A DNA stretch of 41,631 nt, from the NCBI GenBank assembly GCA_030609965.1, contig JAUWSQ010000022.1:1-41631 (forward strand). Reading direction: 5' to 3'. Position numbers and translations under genes: made by a program. Below, piece after piece: positions 1 to 10,429 of this stretch. How positions within the stretch are numbered: position 1 is the first letter of the stretch; each line of letters starts with the position of its first letter. Under the pieces are notes generated by a model. That model made no database searches, was not told the DNA's origin, and saw only the letters and a list, made by a program, of their open reading frames with translations. Source of the DNA: Candidatus Fermentibacterota bacterium (GTDB taxonomy: Bacteria; Fermentibacterota; Fermentibacteria; Fermentibacterales; JCC-6).

Positions 1-93
1 CATATTCGCATCTTCGATTTTGATGAGTTAAGAAAAAAATATGGGATTGCTGAAACTGCCACCCAACAATCGAATCGAGCTGACTTTACTTAG
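1..93 (+). CDS. 3' end of an unidentified gene, probably an integron cassette gene
   Basis: An open frame enters from the left edge and ends at TAG (91-93). The 30 visible residues begin HIRIFDFDELRKKYGI and end SNRADFT. I do not recognise the family. Its last ten or so codons overlap the left arm of the attC-like hairpin that begins at 61, as is usual for integron cassettes, where the gene stops inside or just before attC. It may be the C-terminus of a gene starting outside the window. That the frame is translated is likely but unproven, because so little of it is visible. Confidence 0.5.
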   Translation, partial: HIRIFDFDELRKKYGIAETATQQSNRADFT

Positions 94-132
94 TATTGGT
101 CGAGTTATGAAAGCAGCTCATTCGAAGTGTTA
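61..132 (+). other. attC-like integron recombination site, interrupted by the group II intron (right end resumes at 2054)
   Basis: ACCCAAC (61-67) matches the attC R'' consensus RYYYAAC exactly. GTTA (129-132) joined to GCA (2054-2056) gives an imperfect R' box (consensus GTTRRRY). Between them, TCGAATCGAGCTG (70-82) pairs with CAGCTCATTCGA (114-125), leaving C76 unpaired. CTTT (84-87) pairs with AAAG (110-113), leaving A83 unpaired. Extra bases confined to the left (L'') arm are the known polarity mark of attC and orient the site with the plus-strand genes. Removing the intron restores a site of about 75 nt. The arms conserve pairing rather than sequence, as attC sites do. A covariance-model search would settle it. 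Confidence 0.72.
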
Positions 133-597
133 GTGCGCCAAGCGAAGCTTGGTGCTTCTTATAGGGTGAGCTACTCATTAGGAGTGGCAAGTCCCTGTCG
201 GGCAAAGCCTAACCAGCAGCCCGTATCGAGTGTTGCGCCTGTGGCGGAGCCGGGGTACACGCCGGTGAACAAAACGGGTGAAGCGTACACAGAGAACACT
301 GTAGGCCGCAGGGGAAGCGTACTTCCCTTAAGCGATACAGCCCCGTTAAAGTAATAAGAGCAGTTGGCGACGACTTTAACGCACCGGAAGCCAGTACATA
401 TGAATCGTTATGGTAAGATTCTGAGGAACTGCCGGGGTCATAGAGCGTGGCATGCAGTGAGAGAAGCATCAGGAACTTGGGAGACCCTTCCGCCTCCCGC
501 ATATCGGGTAGGGCATTTCAACCATAAGAAGGATGCCTTATGGGTGGCAAGGGAGTCAGATCATCTCATAGTACTCTGAGACGGTAAGGCCGATCAC

Positions 598-1947
598 ATG
601 GGGAAGGGGATGACGGTATTATGCAACATGCAAAGGAAACATATGCAGATAAGACAGGCTGACAAACATATGCAAACCTCCCTGCGTGGTATAGCAAAGA
701 GAGCAGAGATTTCACCCAAACACCGATTCGGAAACCTCTTCAGTTTACTGAATGAGGAAAATCTTCGCTGGTGTTTTCCGCAGTTGAACAAGAAATCTGC
801 ACCAGGAGTTGATGCTGTTTGCTACGGTACATTTGAAGCCAATCTTGAAGAGAATATTCAGAGGATCGTTGAAGACCACAAGGGGAACAGGTATAAGGCG
901 AAGCTCGTAAGACGCAAGTACATTCCCAAAGCAGGAGGTAAGAAACGACCGCTTGGTATTCCCGCAATTGGTGACAAGGTACTGCAAAAGGCAGTAGCCT
1001 TAATTCTGTCTGCCATCTATGAGGAGGATTTTCTTCCTTGCAGTCATGGTTACAGACGGGGTAAGGGACCTCAACGGGCGGCTCTTGAACTCAGTAAAAC
1101 TCTCCATCGCGGACGGTTCGGATGGGTAGTAGATGCTGACATCAAGGGATTCTTCAATAACATGGATCATGACTGGATGATGAAGATGCTGGAACAGCGT
1201 ATCAATGATAAGCGGTTCCTGGGTCTCATTCGCAAGTGGTTGAAAGCCGGCATACTTGAGGAAGACGGCCAGGTTAAATATCCTGTTACCGGTACACCTC
1301 AGAGCGGAATCATTTCTGCTGTGCTTGCCAACATCTATCTGCACTATGTCATTGATCTCTGGTTTGAGAAAGTCGTTAAACCACGCTGTCGCGGTGAAGC
1401 AATGCTTATGCGTTTCGCCGATGATTTCGTGTGCGCGTTTCGGTACCATGATGACATGAAACGCTTCTACGATGTACTCGGCAAGAGGCTTGGTAAATTC
1501 ACGCTTGAACTCTCATCTGAGAAAACCAGTGTAATCCGGTTTTCCCGGTTTCAGACGGAGAAGAGCAAGGTGTTTACCTTTCTCGGATTTGAATACCGGT
1601 GGGGTTTGAGTCGTTCCGGTAAGCCTCTTGTAAAGATGAGAACATCTAAGGCGAAGCTTCAGATCGCACTTGCCAATATCCGTAAATGGATACGGGTAGA
1701 GCGAAACAAGCACGGAACCGCAGTCATCATGAAGAAACTGCGACTGAAATTGCTTGGACATTGGAATTATTACGGTGTCTCTGGAAATATCAGGATGTTG
1801 AAGGTATACTACTTCAAAGTGTGTAGAATCGTGTTCAAATGGTTGAATCGGCGAAGTCAGCGTAAGAGCTGCAACTGGCACGGGTTCAATGAGATGCTGA
1901 AGCATTTTCAGATACCCGAGCCTCGAATCGTTGGATACTGGGACTGA
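598..1947 (+). CDS. ltrA: Group II intron reverse transcriptase/maturase
   Basis: This 449-residue intron-encoded protein helps the intron RNA splice and copies it into DNA during mobility. RT signatures are in order: an N-terminal block with NKKSAPGVDAV (RT1), RRKYIPKAGGKKRPLGIP (RT2), VVDADIKGFFNNMDHDWM (RT3), TGTPQSGIISAVLANIYL (RT4), and MRFADDFVCAF, where FADD replaces the usual YADD catalytic box (RT5). A maturase/X domain near the C-terminus carries KLLGHWNYYGVSGN. The protein ends EPRIVGYWD with no recognisable HNH endonuclease, so insertion would rely on structured or replicating DNA, consistent with the attC target. The frame is uninterrupted, so the element may be active. ATG 598 is taken as the start, but ATG 610 is possible. 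Other intron RT classes also lack the endonuclease. Confidence 0.93.
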   Translation: MGKGMTVLCNMQRKHMQIRQADKHMQTSLRGIAKRAEISPKHRFGNLFSLLNEENLRWCFPQLNKKSAPGVDAVCYGTFEANLEENIQRIVEDHKGNRYKAKLVRRKYIPKAGGKKRPLGIPAIGDKVLQKAVALILSAIYEEDFLPCSHGYRRGKGPQRAALELSKTLHRGRFGWVVDADIKGFFNNMDHDWMMKMLEQRINDKRFLGLIRKWLKAGILEEDGQVKYPVTGTPQSGIISAVLANIYLHYVIDLWFEKVVKPRCRGEAMLMRFADDFVCAFRYHDDMKRFYDVLGKRLGKFTLELSSEKTSVIRFSRFQTEKSKVFTFLGFEYRWGLSRSGKPLVKMRTSKAKLQIALANIRKWIRVERNKHGTAVIMKKLRLKLLGHWNYYGVSGNIRMLKVYYFKVCRIVFKWLNRRSQRKSCNWHGFNEMLKHFQIPEPRIVGYWD

Positions 1948-1980
1948 TTTATGTTCTTGTACGAAGTGAATAATACCGAG

Positions 1981-2053
1981 GAGCCTTGTGCGATAGTATC
2001 GCATGCAGGGATCTCTGAGGGGGCTGTCGGGTAACTGGCAGTCCTACCTCGAT
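1981..2053 (+). ncRNA. Group II intron domains V and VI
   Basis: Domain V begins GAGCCTTGTGCGA and folds back on TCGCATGCAGGGATC with a two-base UG bulge, matching the bacterial domain V layout and containing the AGC catalytic triad. One pair at the triad appears as a G-A mismatch rather than the usual G-U, which might slow catalysis. Domain VI is a stem starting GAGGGGGCTG and closing with CAGTCCTACCTC; A2046 bulges from the 3' strand as the expected branch point. The intron then ends ...CGAT at 2053. Assignment is by eye. Confidence 0.8.
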
Positions 2054-2069
2054 GCATACAAAGAAGGGA

Positions 2070-2098
2070 TTGACATACAGTATCATTATTGATACTAT
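2070..2098 (+). promoter_or_regulatory. hicAB promoter with overlapping palindromic operator
   Basis: TTGACA (2070-2075), a 17-nt spacer and TACTAT (2093-2098) form a near-consensus sigma-70 promoter. A perfect inverted repeat, AGTATCA-ttat-TGATACT (2079-2096), fills the spacer and overlaps the -10 box. It is a natural site for autorepression by HicB, whose C-terminus is a ribbon-helix-helix. The hicA ATG lies only five bases beyond the -10 box, so transcription would start at or next to the ATG and the mRNA may be leaderless; no Shine-Dalgarno sequence precedes it. The promoter lies wholly inside the cassette, just downstream of the intron, so hicAB need not depend on an integron Pc promoter. 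Confidence 0.75.
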
Positions 2099-2103
2099 AT
2101 TCT

Positions 2104-2364
2104 ATGGTAAAGATAGAGCAGTTGATAAAAAGAATGAAGGATAACCCAAAGGATATCCAATTCTCGGATTTATGCAGGATTTGTAGATACTATTTTGGTG
2201 AACCCAGGCAATCTGGATCAAGTCATCAAGTTTACAAAACACCATGGCAGGGAGACCCGAGAGTGAACATTCAGAATAAGAAAGGCAAAGCAAAAGCCTA
2301 CCAGGTTAGACAAGTTCTTCGAGCCATAGAAAGGTTGAGTGAAGAGAATGCCATTGAAGAATGA
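2104..2364 (+). CDS. hicA: HicA-type mRNA interferase toxin
   Basis: A protein of 86 residues from ATG 2104. The frame also opens at TTG 2089, but that codon lies within the promoter. HicA toxins are small double-stranded-RNA-binding-fold ribonucleases that cut mRNA and are blocked by HicB. The core GSSHQVYKTPWQGDPRVNIQ holds the expected catalytic histidine (about residue 41) followed by beta strands. The tail KAKAYQVRQVLRAIERL matches the C-terminal helix of longer HicA forms. It overlaps hicB by 17 bp, the usual toxin-first order. The pair sits between two attC-like sites, as is common for toxin-antitoxin cassettes in sedentary integrons. The neighbouring hicB raises confidence in a divergent toxin call. 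Confidence 0.87.
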   Translation: MVKIEQLIKRMKDNPKDIQFSDLCRICRYYFGEPRQSGSSHQVYKTPWQGDPRVNIQNKKGKAKAYQVRQVLRAIERLSEENAIEE

Positions 2365-2677
2365 CCATTATACATATCGAGTGACTTGGTCTGAAGAAGA
2401 TCAGGAATATGTTGGTCTATGTACAGAGTTCCCCAGCCTGAGTTGGCTTACCAAAACTCAGGATTCAGCTCTTGAGGGAATAAGACAGCTTGTGGCTGAT
2501 GTTATCTCTGACATGAAGAACAATAAAGAAGAAATACCAATTCCTATTTCAATCAGGAAATACAGCGGAAAGTTTATGGTGCGGATTCCTCCCGAAGTTC
2601 ATCGCAAACTTGCTGAAATTGCAGCAGAAGAGGGAGTGAGTATCAACCGACTGGTAAGTGCAAGACTTGCAAAATAG
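2348..2677 (+). CDS. hicB: HicB-type antitoxin with ribbon-helix-helix domain
   Basis: The start is taken at ATG 2348 (MPLKNDHYTY), downstream of a purine-rich stretch. A GTG at 2339 would add three residues. The N-terminal half (YTYRVTWSEEDQEYVGLCTE, then DSALEGIRQLVADVI) is the partly degraded RNase-H-like fold that binds and neutralises HicA. The C-terminal half (KFMVRIPPEVHRKLAEIAAE, then INRLVSARL) is a ribbon-helix-helix DNA-binding domain, expected to bind the palindrome at 2079-2096 and repress the operon. The gene stops three bases before the second attC-like site, as expected of a cassette gene. Confidence 0.92.
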   Translation: MPLKNDHYTYRVTWSEEDQEYVGLCTEFPSLSWLTKTQDSALEGIRQLVADVISDMKNNKEEIPIPISIRKYSGKFMVRIPPEVHRKLAEIAAEEGVSINRLVSARLAK

Positions 2678-2679
2678 AG

Positions 2680-2759
2680 TGCTAACAACTGCATAAACCA
2701 GCACAAATGCAAACCATGATTCAGAGTAACGCTTGTGCAGGTTATGCAGAACGTTATGC
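2680..2759 (+). other. attC-like integron recombination site closing the hicAB cassette
   Basis: GCTAAC (2681-2686) and GTTATGC (2753-2759) are the outer R''/R' boxes, close to but not exactly RYYYAAC/GTTRRRY. CTGCATAA (2689-2696) pairs with TTATGCAG (2742-2749). A2697 is extrahelical. CC (2698-2699) pairs with GG (2740-2741), A2700 faces A2739, and GCACAA (2701-2706) pairs with TTGTGC (2733-2738). The non-pairing AA/AAC between outer and inner boxes matches the unpaired central spacer, and 2707-2732 is the variable terminal loop. The extra base is again in the left arm, giving the same orientation as the site at 61-132. It starts three bases after the hicB stop. Confidence 0.78.
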
Positions 2760-2777
2760 AGAGAATTAGGAGAGTAA

Positions 2778-3095
2778 ATGGAACGCAAGAAATATGACGC
2801 ATTACTCCTGTTCCCACAGATTGGCGTCTGCGGTCAAAACTGCAAGCACTGCTTTACCAATGCTAAACTTAAGGAGAACAGACCGTTCGAACACGTCAAG
2901 TACATCATTGATGCAATGGCGGAAACCTTTGCTGAGCCTGCGATCACTGAGAAAGCCTTCCTTTACTTCCTTGATGAACTGACTCTTTACCCCCAAGTAA
3001 TAAAGCTTCTTTCCTACTGCAGAGATAAAAACGTTCTCCCGCAGCAGCATCTTCTGGAGCTACAAAACTATCAGCAGCGGTTACAAAATCGTTGA
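2778..3095 (+). pseudogene. Truncated radical-SAM protein (N-terminal third only)
   Basis: The start is ATG 2778, preceded by TAGGAGAG as a ribosome binding site, 18 bases after the second attC-like site, so it may be the gene of the next cassette. CGQNCKHC is a CX3CX2C motif, the [4Fe-4S] ligand set of radical-SAM enzymes, placed early as usual. The frame stops after 105 residues, whereas radical-SAM domains need about 200 or more, so the AdoMet-binding half is missing. The last residues (QQHLLELQNYQQRLQNR) look out of frame. I read it as a broken gene; a short functional cassette protein is less likely. Confidence 0.6.
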
Positions 3096-3165
3096 ATTCT
3101 CATTCGACATCGGGACAGCACTGGAACGCTCCACATGGGGATCTATAAAGGCAGACAGCTATTGA
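3004..3165 (+). pseudogene. Possible 3' fragment of another gene, out of frame with the radical-SAM stub
   Basis: The frame 3004-3165, offset by one from the radical-SAM frame, encodes a plausible C-terminus (GYKIVEFSFDIGTALERSTW then GSIKADSY) ending at TGA 3163-3165. It has no start codon of its own with a ribosome site. Overlap with the end of the radical-SAM frame suggests either a frameshift in one longer gene or a junction between two unrelated gene remnants. No attC-like hairpin was seen after it, so the cassette array may end here. Confidence 0.3.
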
Positions 3166-3224
3166 CGAAAACTGCAGTCTACGGCAAATTACAATCAAAC
3201 CCAATTCTGGAAAGGCACCGGTTC

Positions 3225-3812
3225 ATGAAACTGAAAAACATAGCATTTGTCCTGATGATAGCTTCAGCAGCAACCGTGGCGAAACCATGGAGCAGCGCTT
3301 CGGGCGGGTTGGACATGAGCTACCTGTACTGGGAACATGGTGGAGACTGTGTCTGGGGTTTCCAGTCGGCTTTCGGGCCACGGATAATTGATGATCTCTA
3401 CTTCCGAGTCAAAATAACGATTCCCGCTCCTATATTTATAATTATCGGCAATCAGATCAATATAGGAGGTGAATTTTCCTACCTGCTTCGAAATCCTCAG
3501 GAGGGATTCGCCGTTGAAACCTCACTCGGAGCCGCATGGAGCCTCATGTGGCCCGAGAACATCATAGTGATATTGGCTGACGGAGAGAGTACGACCCCTC
3601 CCAGGGAGTATGCTTATGATGGTGGAAACGGCATAAGGCTGGAAGCTCTGGTAAGCACAGGCTACAAATTCAGTATGGGAGCCCTCTGGCTTGATCTGGG
3701 GGTGGACCACCGTATAATGGACATCACAAGAACTGTTGACGGAGAGAAAGAAGACGGTACTTATACATTCACAGGTCCCCATCTTGGTATAAGCGCCGAT
3801 TTCTATTTCTGA
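3225..3812 (+). CDS. Small outer-membrane beta-barrel-like protein, unknown function
   Basis: I choose ATG 3225 (MKLKNIAFVLMIAS) because a typical signal peptide starts there, with likely cleavage after ATVA and an upstream GAAAGG. The frame is open from 3135, but that extension is charged and overlaps the debris region. The mature part of about 175 residues alternates hydrophobic and polar residues with many Gly and aromatics (INIGGEFSYLLRN, FSMGALWLDLGVDHRI) and ends in a terminal Phe (GISADFYF), a pattern of beta-barrel outer-membrane proteins. It stands alone before a poorly coding stretch. I do not recognise the family. Confidence 0.6.
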   Translation: MKLKNIAFVLMIASAATVAKPWSSASGGLDMSYLYWEHGGDCVWGFQSAFGPRIIDDLYFRVKITIPAPIFIIIGNQINIGGEFSYLLRNPQEGFAVETSLGAAWSLMWPENIIVILADGESTTPPREYAYDGGNGIRLEALVSTGYKFSMGALWLDLGVDHRIMDITRTVDGEKEDGTYTFTGPHLGISADFYF

Positions 3813-3823
3813 TGTAAATACAG

Positions 3824-4066
3824 CTACTGGCGAAGAGTTCTGCCAGGTTTCCGAATGACCTTTAATATCCGGAGTGCTTCAAGAAAGCACTGGAGAGCCT
3901 GATCAATATTCGACAGCCAGATCTGTTCCCGGTTCTCTATAGAGAGATCAAGAGCTTCTTCTCCCCTGGATGCGCTCAGTGCGGAGAATCCCGGCATTTC
4001 CAAAAGAAAGAGATAGCGTATCAGTTGATCATCACATTGACCGGGAAGTGCTTCAAGCAGTATCAT
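3824..4066 (-). CDS. Doubtful small ORF in a 414-bp stretch without a clear gene
   Basis: The region 3813-4226 has no confident gene. A minus-strand frame encodes 80 residues (MILLEALPGQCDDQLIRYLF at the start, RILKVIRKPGRTLRQ at the end) with helical character and codon use not unlike the neighbours, but no Shine-Dalgarno sequence or known family. A plus-strand frame at 3970-4233 overlaps it. Its second half (GEEIEKKGTEKLYRELILIW and onward) also looks protein-like and runs into the start of the PrsW gene. Only one can be real here, and the stretch may instead hold gene remnants left near the accessory region. Confidence 0.25.
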   Translation of the reverse strand: MILLEALPGQCDDQLIRYLFLLEMPGFSALSASRGEEALDLSIENREQIWLSNIDQALQCFLEALRILKVIRKPGRTLRQ

Positions 4067-4226
4067 TGATTTCAGGTGAAGAAATTGAGAAAAAGGGAAC
4101 TGAAAAATTGTATCGGGAACTGATTCTGATCTGGAGTGAAATCAAGTTTCCAGTGATTATAAGTAAGGAATACCGCTTGAAATATTTTGTTGTTCCAGCC
4201 AGACCTATGCACAAAGCAGGTTTTTC

Positions 4227-4913
4227 ATGCTGATCCCGGCACTTGCCTCTATCATCCCGGCGTTTCTCTGGATGATCTACTTTTACAGAAGTGACAGATA
4301 CGCACCTGAACCAAAAAAGCTCGTAGCAAGAACTTTCCTCGTGGGAGCGCTGGTTGGGGCCGCAATGGTCTTTTCATTGAAAGAGCTTCCATTCTACGTG
4401 AGCCTTCTCACACTTGCCGTATTTGTAGCTCCGTTTACCGAAGAGATCGCTAAATTTCTCTGCGTTCGCTGGACAGTATATAATCGCAGTGAATTTGATG
4501 AACCTGTAGATGGTATGGTCTATGCAACAGCTGCTGCATTGGGATTCGCATCGGTTGAGAACATTATCTATGTGCTTAACAGCTGGGCATCCGGCGGAGC
4601 AGAAATGGGGGTATATGTTCTTACTGGCAGAGCCGTACTGAGTGTTCCAGCGCATGCGCTGTTCTCAAGCCTCTGGGGACTTGCTCTGGGCTGGCATAAG
4701 AGAAAGAAAACCTTTAAATCATCTTTGCTTGTCGTAGCGGGATTGCTGGGCAGCATGGTACTCCACGGACTCTTCAATTATTTGACAAGCGAAAACCTTT
4801 TCGGAGGATTGCTTTTCCTCACTCTGATGGCCATTGCGTGGCGCGGTGTATTTCTCCTTACGCGGAAAGCACTGAAACCGGGTATTCCAGCGGATGCAGC
4901 TGATAATGGATAA
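4227..4913 (+). CDS. prsW: PrsW-family intramembrane metalloprotease
   Basis: A 228-residue polytopic membrane protein. PrsW proteases cut membrane substrates, classically an anti-sigma factor in Bacillus subtilis; the substrate here is unknown. Visible hallmarks are FTEEIAKF (the EExxK active-site motif, about residues 69-76), DGMVYATAAALGFASVENII (about 92-111), SVPAHALFSSLWGLALGWH with its conserved His, and LHGLFNY near the C-terminus. About seven hydrophobic segments are visible. The start ATG 4227 directly opens a membrane helix. No sigma/anti-sigma pair lies next to it. Confidence 0.88.
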   Translation: MLIPALASIIPAFLWMIYFYRSDRYAPEPKKLVARTFLVGALVGAAMVFSLKELPFYVSLLTLAVFVAPFTEEIAKFLCVRWTVYNRSEFDEPVDGMVYATAAALGFASVENIIYVLNSWASGGAEMGVYVLTGRAVLSVPAHALFSSLWGLALGWHKRKKTFKSSLLVVAGLLGSMVLHGLFNYLTSENLFGGLLFLTLMAIAWRGVFLLTRKALKPGIPADAADNG

Positions 4914-8947: not shown

Positions 8948-10429
8948 ATGACAGAAGTGAATGTGAAGAAGGAGATAGCGAGCAACATTTCGAGAATATC
9001 TTCTGAAGGCGCCGATTACGTTGACGCAAGATACTACCTTGATGACAGTTCTGAAACGCTACTGCTCTACGATGGCGACCTTGAGGCCAACGATACAACA
9101 GTAGAGTGTGGTATCGGAGTAAGGGTTTTATGGGAAGGCGCATGGGGGTTTTCAGCCACCAGCGATCCTTCCGGGATTGATGCGTGTTTCGCGAAGGCTG
9201 CTGCGAACGCCAGAACGGCATCCAGGCTTGTTAATGTTCCCCTTTCGATGGGTGCGGGGGAAGCTGTCAAGGGTAGTTATGCGTCCCCTGTCGAGATTGA
9301 CCCTTTCTCTGTGAGCCTTCAGGATAAACTCGCATTTCTGAGCAGGCTTGATAATGATCTGAAGGAAGACTTCATTTTCAAGAGAATGGTCTTTGTCAAT
9401 TTCCAGAAGAAGAAGATTCACTTCCAGAATAGCTTTGGTTCCGAAATAAACAAGGATCTTGCCTCTGTTTTCGGTATGATCATGGTCATGGCGCTTGATT
9501 CCGACGGTGAGATGCAAAGGCGAAGTATGAGCCTGTATTCAACTGGGGATGGCACTGCCGGCTGGAAAATGATGACTGATCCGGAGCTCTTCTCCGGGCA
9601 CGCAGGTAGAATCAGATCGGAACTGGCAGAGCTTATCAAGGCTGAACCCCTCGAATATGGGAGACGATCCGTGATACTGCTTCCCGGTCAGGGTCATCTT
9701 CAGGTTCATGAAACAATCGGGCATCCGCTTGAGCTGGACAGAATTCTTGGATACGAGCTTTCCTATGCCGGAGGTTCCTTTGTTGACCTTGATTCATTCG
9801 GTAAACTCAGGTACGGAAGTGATAAGCTGTCTGTAAGTTCTTACGGAAGTATCGCGAATTCCCCCGGTTCATTCGGATTCGATGATGATGGAACCCCTGA
9901 GCGTGATTACCTCCTTATTGACAGGGGTATCCTGGTCAACGCCCTTACATCAAGAGCCATGGTAAACGAAGCGAATGAAAGAGCCGGCAGGGAAGTCTTC
10001 GAGCAGAGTGGAGGAGCAGCCCGTGCAACATCTTTCTACAGAGCTCCAATAGATAGAATGACCAATGTGAATATTCTTCCGGGTAACGATGGCACCGAGG
10101 ATGAGATAATAGCATCAACCGAGGATGGTATCGTGGTTGATAATCCCGTTTCATGGTCAATCGGTTCCAACCGGGAGCATTTCCACTTCGGTTGCGAAAT
10201 CGCATGGGAAGTGAAGAACGGAGAAAAGACCCGGGTTCTGAGAAACCCAACTTACCAGGGGCATACTCTGGAATTCTACGGTTCCCTTTCTGCAGTGGGA
10301 GACAAATCCACATGGAAAGTAGAGCAGGTGAATAACTGCGGGAAAGGCGAGCCGAACCAGGTCATGCAGATCGGCCATGGAGTCCCTGTTATTAAATTCG
10401 ATGATGTGATTACCGGAGAAAGGAAGTAG
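8948..10429 (+). CDS. tldD: TldD metalloprotease subunit
   Basis: A 493-residue TldD. TldD with TldE (PmbA) forms a heterodimeric zinc protease that cleaves unfolded peptides and matures some peptide natural products such as microcin B17. HETIGHPLELDR carries the HExxxH zinc site (His254 and His259). Downstream, PERDYLLIDRGILVNALTSR is a conserved family stretch, and the tail has the family Cys-rich segment (VNNCGKGEPNQVMQIGHGVP). It is followed after three bases by the partner gene. No peptide precursor gene is obvious in the window. Confidence 0.95.
   Translation: MTEVNVKKEIASNISRISSEGADYVDARYYLDDSSETLLLYDGDLEANDTTVECGIGVRVLWEGAWGFSATSDPSGIDACFAKAAANARTASRLVNVPLSMGAGEAVKGSYASPVEIDPFSVSLQDKLAFLSRLDNDLKEDFIFKRMVFVNFQKKKIHFQNSFGSEINKDLASVFGMIMVMALDSDGEMQRRSMSLYSTGDGTAGWKMMTDPELFSGHAGRIRSELAELIKAEPLEYGRRSVILLPGQGHLQVHETIGHPLELDRILGYELSYAGGSFVDLDSFGKLRYGSDKLSVSSYGSIANSPGSFGFDDDGTPERDYLLIDRGILVNALTSRAMVNEANERAGREVFEQSGGAARATSFYRAPIDRMTNVNILPGNDGTEDEIIASTEDGIVVDNPVSWSIGSNREHFHFGCEIAWEVKNGEKTRVLRNPTYQGHTLEFYGSLSAVGDKSTWKVEQVNNCGKGEPNQVMQIGHGVPVIKFDDVITGERK

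Follow-up and report, generated by a model that had tools for sequence, protein, structure and literature searches.

The window analysed here, a stretch of 41,631 nucleotides from a Candidatus Fermentibacterota bacterium (contig JAUWSQ010000022.1), carries an apparently complete group II intron inside the R' box of an integron attC site. Relatives of this intron in several phyla lie at the same place and on the same strand, with the same boundaries and mostly behind an attC hairpin, and are separate from the class C (IIC) introns. With a probability of roughly 0.85, we regard the intron as a member of a non-IIC lineage (D1D4-6 type, with an endonuclease-less intron-encoded protein, IEP) that is apparently intact and mobile, has specialised on integron attC sites and retrohomes into their folded top strands.

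The intron and the attC site it divides

The intron, of the RF02005 (D1D4-6) type, spans positions 133 to 2053 on the plus strand, as delimited by homologue boundaries and an intron-free allele. With GTGCGCC at the 5' end and CTCGAT at the 3' end, it has the GUGYG start and AY end of mobile group II introns (GTGCG...AT), together with domains V and VI. The ribozyme domains match Rfam RF02005 (group-II-D1D4-6) at 188-447 (+) with 118 bits and an E-value of 4.9e-33. A candidate EBS1, UAAC, was placed at 210-213 (+) from the homologue alignment and is complementary to the IBS1 GTTA at 129-132; EBS1 shows no covariation at sites where position -1 is C or T. Domain IV encodes a reverse transcriptase (RT)/maturase of 449 aa with a FADD active site (598-1947, +), which scores 326.8 bits against TIGR04416 (cut-off 300) and which, judging from homologues, may start at 643 instead of 598. 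Protein family profiles matched no endonuclease domain in this IEP. Domain V, with the catalytic triad AGC, lies at 1981-2014 (+) according to its sequence and the comparison with relatives, and domain VI, with a candidate branch-point A at 2046, was read directly at 2017-2050 (+).

The earlier note on this DNA had proposed a group II intron inside the R' box of an attC-like site, on the top strand and in cassette orientation, and this is borne out beyond chance. Its joining of position 132 to 2054 also holds: the spliced site contains R'' (ACCCAAC) and R' boxes, pairing L''/L' arms and extrahelical bases on the left arm, it scores as an attC, and its two strands fold with z of about -3.3 and -3.6 relative to shuffled sequences. 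The 5' part, at 61-132 (+), comprises R'' at 61-67, L'', the variable loop, L' and the GTTA of R' at 129-132, as supported by the covariance model, the fold and covariation among family sites; the remainder of R', GCA, lies at 2054-2056 (+). In a relative (L070, G011:C101), the same hicAB-like cassette adjoins a nearly identical attC that lacks the intron, AAGCATTA/GCATACAAAGAAGGG (slashes mark insertion or cleavage points throughout), and the 132/2054 junction is therefore fixed and no guess.

On direct reading, the 3' end of an upstream cassette ORF, partial at the contig start, occupies 1-93 (+), with its TAG stop (91-93) inside the attC. The window is the start of its contig (C76) in a fragmented assembly of 81 contigs and 2.6 Mb, and for this reason further upstream cassettes and intI are invisible. 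Downstream of the intron lies a gene cassette (2054-2753, +) with a HicA-like frame at 2104-2364, which matched no protein family and is called HicA by inspection, and a HicB-family antitoxin at 2354-2677 (Pfam PF05534, E 1.1e-14). It is followed by a second, intact attC at 2680-2759 (+), with R'' TGCTAAC and R' GTTATGC; the covariance model, from whose training set this site was absent, matches it at 2680-2756 with 39.3 bits (E 2.6e-7). Used as a query, the cassette turned up in over a dozen relatives. In five of these loci (L071, L073, L081, L083 and L084) it stands behind quite different attCs, which places the attC between mobile cassettes. At one further locus (L079, G027:C61), a remnant of an intron 3' end precedes the hicAB cassette and a second intron lies in the cassette's own attC.

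The target across the lineage

IEP relatives with 46-90% identity were found in Desulfobacterota, Firmicutes, KSB1, Spirochaetes, Lentisphaerae and others. The homologous introns in other phyla have the same 5' and 3' boundaries and mostly start behind GTTA. Searches with the conserved intron 5' end yielded 41 distinct sites. At most of them the intron immediately follows an attC hairpin, on the strand that is sense for the cassettes. Among 40 of these sites, position -5 is C in 35, -4 is G in 37, -3 is T in 37 and -2 is T in 38; position -1 is A in 26 and G in 10, and the sequence further upstream is otherwise weakly conserved. Two of the 41 sites (L029 and L106) are exceptions and end in TTCG/.

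In a simple test, a strong duplex of R'' and arms was present at 68% of sites compared with 18% of random CGTTR positions, these controls being drawn from the same loci with their attC arrays included; several sites had no clear R'' in this test. Covariation in the arms was pronounced across 20 aligned sites: 87% of the cells were paired and 61 had changed on both sides, giving a score of 0.475 versus 0.132 for shuffled alignments and at most 0.149 for slid controls.

A covariance model was built from 20 target hairpins only and was then tested independently on class 1 integron records. It found the attCs at the ends of estX, a HAD hydrolase gene, aadA2, cmlA1, aadA1 and qacL, as well as those of aac(6')-Ib, dfrA1, aac(6')-IIa and others; every match was on the cassette strand. 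At intron-bearing loci, all 32 attC matches lay on the strand of the intron; 13 of them, part of which are training sequences, ended one base before the intron, and the other 19 were not beside one. The model also detected attC arrays in host genomes. An integron integrase above the curated cut-off was present in 6 of 8 host genomes versus 0 of 14 control genomes.

The genome of the window contains a second intron copy at C79:13747. Only a truncated intI was seen in it, beside an attC array (L157, G000:C78; 605-1231 on the minus strand and 1998-4577); close relatives of this genome are labelled Candidatus Aegiribacteria and Sabulitectum. Desulfogranum japonicum has 11 intron copies. In an even draw of 247 genomes from its phylum, 6 matched, some of them with a different target family, and the lineage is therefore patchy. 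Viral contigs that were searched gave remote RTs only, and plasmid RT matches, judged by similarity alone, included no integron introns. A related intron family in one genome (G078; L226 and L230-L233) occurs at GTGCGCCAGGCGAAGCCTGG.. in five copies, all after ATCTG and at non-attC sites; it was left out of the counts.

A broader reading, in which a D1D4-6 intron targets palindromes in general and attC is merely the commonest palindrome, with no integron specialisation, appears unlikely. A related intron from Klebsiella/E. coli, with RNA of this type, does lie directly behind LexA-box-like palindromes, and two family members were found at non-attC sites; however, the prevailing target throughout the lineage is CGTTR at a fixed place of the attC, accompanied by R'' and covarying arms, and the host genomes carry intI.

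Still less probable is that the intron spreads chiefly by travelling in cassettes through integrase recombination, so that its constant position would reflect cassette structure and not retrohoming. By the logic of the integrase the intron does belong to the downstream cassette, three bases past the crossover and with the stem intact, and window-type introns precede hicAB cassettes in two genomes. Against this stands the intron-free L070 allele, with the same attC and the same next cassette; the simplest origin of the window copy is thus insertion at a junction that was already there. Moreover, in G026 and G027 the intron occupies the hicAB cassette's own attC, a different site of the same cassette.

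Separation from class C introns

The earlier note had taken the intron for a variant of the IIC-attC introns, with its RT expected in their clade. This was not confirmed, the RNA family, the domain V triad and the RT clade all lying outside class C. Of the two results that the note had named as counting against it, an RT outside class C was obtained; the other, a joined sequence that does not score as an attC, was not.

For comparison, IIC-attC introns were collected from class 1 integrons (L177, L178, Kl.pn.I3 in L181, and L182-L185), where they were found through truncated aadA attC matches. For these controls and for terminator-type class C introns, the matching families are RF02001 and RF01998, the D1D4-3 and D1D4-1 types that canonical IIC-attC introns match, whereas the window lineage matches RF02005. 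The domain V triad is AGC in the window and its relatives and CGC in Kl.pn.I3, CGC being a criterion for IIC (PMC7923331). In the RT tree, the window intron falls in a clade of 14 rows with support of 100/100, and class C stands apart with 100/99. Forcing the two together cost 26 log units and was rejected (p-AU 0.0093). RT identity was 29% to IIC-attC members (Kl.pn.I3) and 36-46% to other D1D4-6 introns.

The window lineage does have traits resembling class C, namely an upstream stem-loop, a short IBS1 and no IBS2, and this likeness in stem-loop and IBS1 is functional and not one of kinship. By comparison with the IIC-attC and terminator-type class C introns, the lineage is classed as non-IIC. 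The manner of insertion differs as well: IIC-attC introns enter the bottom strand at R'' (TTGT/T), opposite to the cassettes, and the window intron does not.

That the window intron is a one-off class C (IIC-attC) variant inserted in the opposite orientation is thus extremely improbable: an integron attC host, an endonuclease-less IEP, a GUGCG start, a short IBS1 and an upstream hairpin are all as in IIC (PMC7923331), but RNA family, triad and RT phylogeny lie outside IIC, dozens of relatives occupy the same strand and position, genuine IIC-attC controls sit behind the bottom strand of the attC, opposite to the cassettes, and the variant could stand only if the Rfam and the RT assignments were both in error.

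Both lineages can occupy a single attC. In Desulforhopalus sp. IMCC35007 (L152), the R'' side of one attC holds a canonical IIC-attC intron that begins at 9110 (minus strand), and its R' holds a window-type intron that begins at 9160 (plus strand); an integrase gene scoring above the cut-off is located a few kilobases from them. The same double occupancy is found in Desulfogranum japonicum (L144), with 51 bases of attC between the introns. The doubly invaded sites lie at L152:9104-9160 and L144:18332-18384, with the introns about 50 bases apart. The IIC-attC and window lineages therefore use opposite ends and strands of one hairpin.

Class C introns were also observed behind intrinsic terminators in the same bacterial family (L048 and L049, in G031 and G035), the one at L048 directly 3' of rRNA genes.

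Fate of the integrase site and relation to known introns

In the mechanism we propose for the non-IIC lineage, the intron RNP would read the folded top strand of the attC, single-stranded at replication forks, and the hairpin would replace the missing long IBS2, as in IIC introns. EBS1 (UAAC) would pair with the GTTR of the R' box, and the intron RNA would reverse-splice after GTTR, three bases past the integrase crossover and in cassette sense. It would then splice out of cassette transcripts, and the integrase site would survive, with the intron forming the 5' portion of the cassette that follows. According to PMC11023631, attC bottom strands in native chromosomal integrons belong to the leading-strand template and top strands to the lagging-strand template, whose single-stranded stretches favour folding; an endonuclease-less intron would profit from that strand. 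The intron-sense strand had a positive GC skew in 12 of 17 contigs, which is not significant and is suggestive at best, weakly favouring insertion into the lagging-strand template.

The further claim of the earlier note, that the intron breaks the integrase site and blocks excision of the upstream cassette, found no support. Crossover in the attC of the window is expected between 129 and 130 (G/TT), the insertion lies three bases past it, and R'' and the stem remain. The first base of the intron restores GTTAG, so that R' with the intron reads GTTAGTG. The predicted bottom-strand fold with the intron has the same stem, at -17.6 against -15.1 kcal/mol. Given the distance from the crossover and the unchanged predicted stem, the intron-bearing attC may still recombine, with the intron joining the downstream cassette. 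The full scenario, in which a non-IIC lineage independently became an integron specialist, homes to the top strand that the integrase does not use, leaves the site usable, heads the next cassette and is spliced from its transcripts, is put forward tentatively, and as a whole we consider it rather doubtful.

IIC-attC introns, with their bottom-strand target and opposite orientation, are well established (PMC7923331, PMC8876359). Those such as S.ma.I2 and Kl.pn.I3 resemble the window lineage in being mobile, endonuclease-less and targeted to the attC hairpin, with insertion into the R box at its 3' side and a short IBS1. They differ in target (bottom strand, R'', TTGT/T, against the cassettes, according to PMC7923331 and our controls) and in kind (D1D4-3/D1D4-1, CGC, class C RT), whereas the window lineage uses the top strand and R' (GTTR/) in cassette sense and has D1D4-6 RNA, AGC and another RT clade. 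Single introns in integrons that are top-strand or non-IIC have already been reported. An Enterobacter cloacae group IIC intron whose target is unusual (Rodriguez-Martinez 2012, as cited in PMC7923331) and one same-orientation intron in Shewanella algae KC-Na-R1 (PMC9229058) are described as class C and are compared with the window intron by that description.

Non-IIC introns within cassette arrays, as in the window, include the class E (IIB) fragments H.ha.F1/F2 in a CALIN of Halorhodospira halochloris and the CL1 intron UHB.I2, in cassette orientation directly behind an attC (both PMC7923331), as well as class E and CL1 introns in Shewanella integrons (PMC9229058). H.ha.F1/F2 lack their 5' ends and hence have no known target, UHB.I2 is a CL1 intron starting with UUGCG, and the class E and CL1 reports show no fixed attC position or lineage-wide habit (PMC7923331, PMC9229058). 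The Klebsiella/E. coli plasmid intron with IEP WP_004178082.1 is likewise of the D1D4-6 type, lies behind a palindrome and has an RT 36% identical to that of the window, but its target is LexA-box-like (ACAGT/) and not attC, and its IEP is longer (496 aa open frame). We observed it on E. coli and K. pneumoniae plasmids (L111, L112 and L118) behind CTGT..ATATACAGT/GTGCGCC, near umuD and colicin genes, as if homing to SOS boxes; this type of plasmid intron is very common, with related RTs in thousands of records. A literature search, with many older papers beyond its reach, returned no non-IIC lineage with a fixed top-strand R' target and no doubly occupied attCs; since older literature is only partly covered, this absence of reports is no proof of novelty.

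Among group II introns, the targeting of hairpins and the parasitism of integrons had been linked to class C. The lineage described here is a second, unrelated one; it uses that hairpin from the other strand and at the other R box, with base-exact placement across several phyla. Comparing the two lineages offers a way to ask how an intron RNP selects one of the two folded strands of an attC. The same comparison bears on whether this choice depends on replication direction, and on whether introns can travel in cassettes without harm to the integron.
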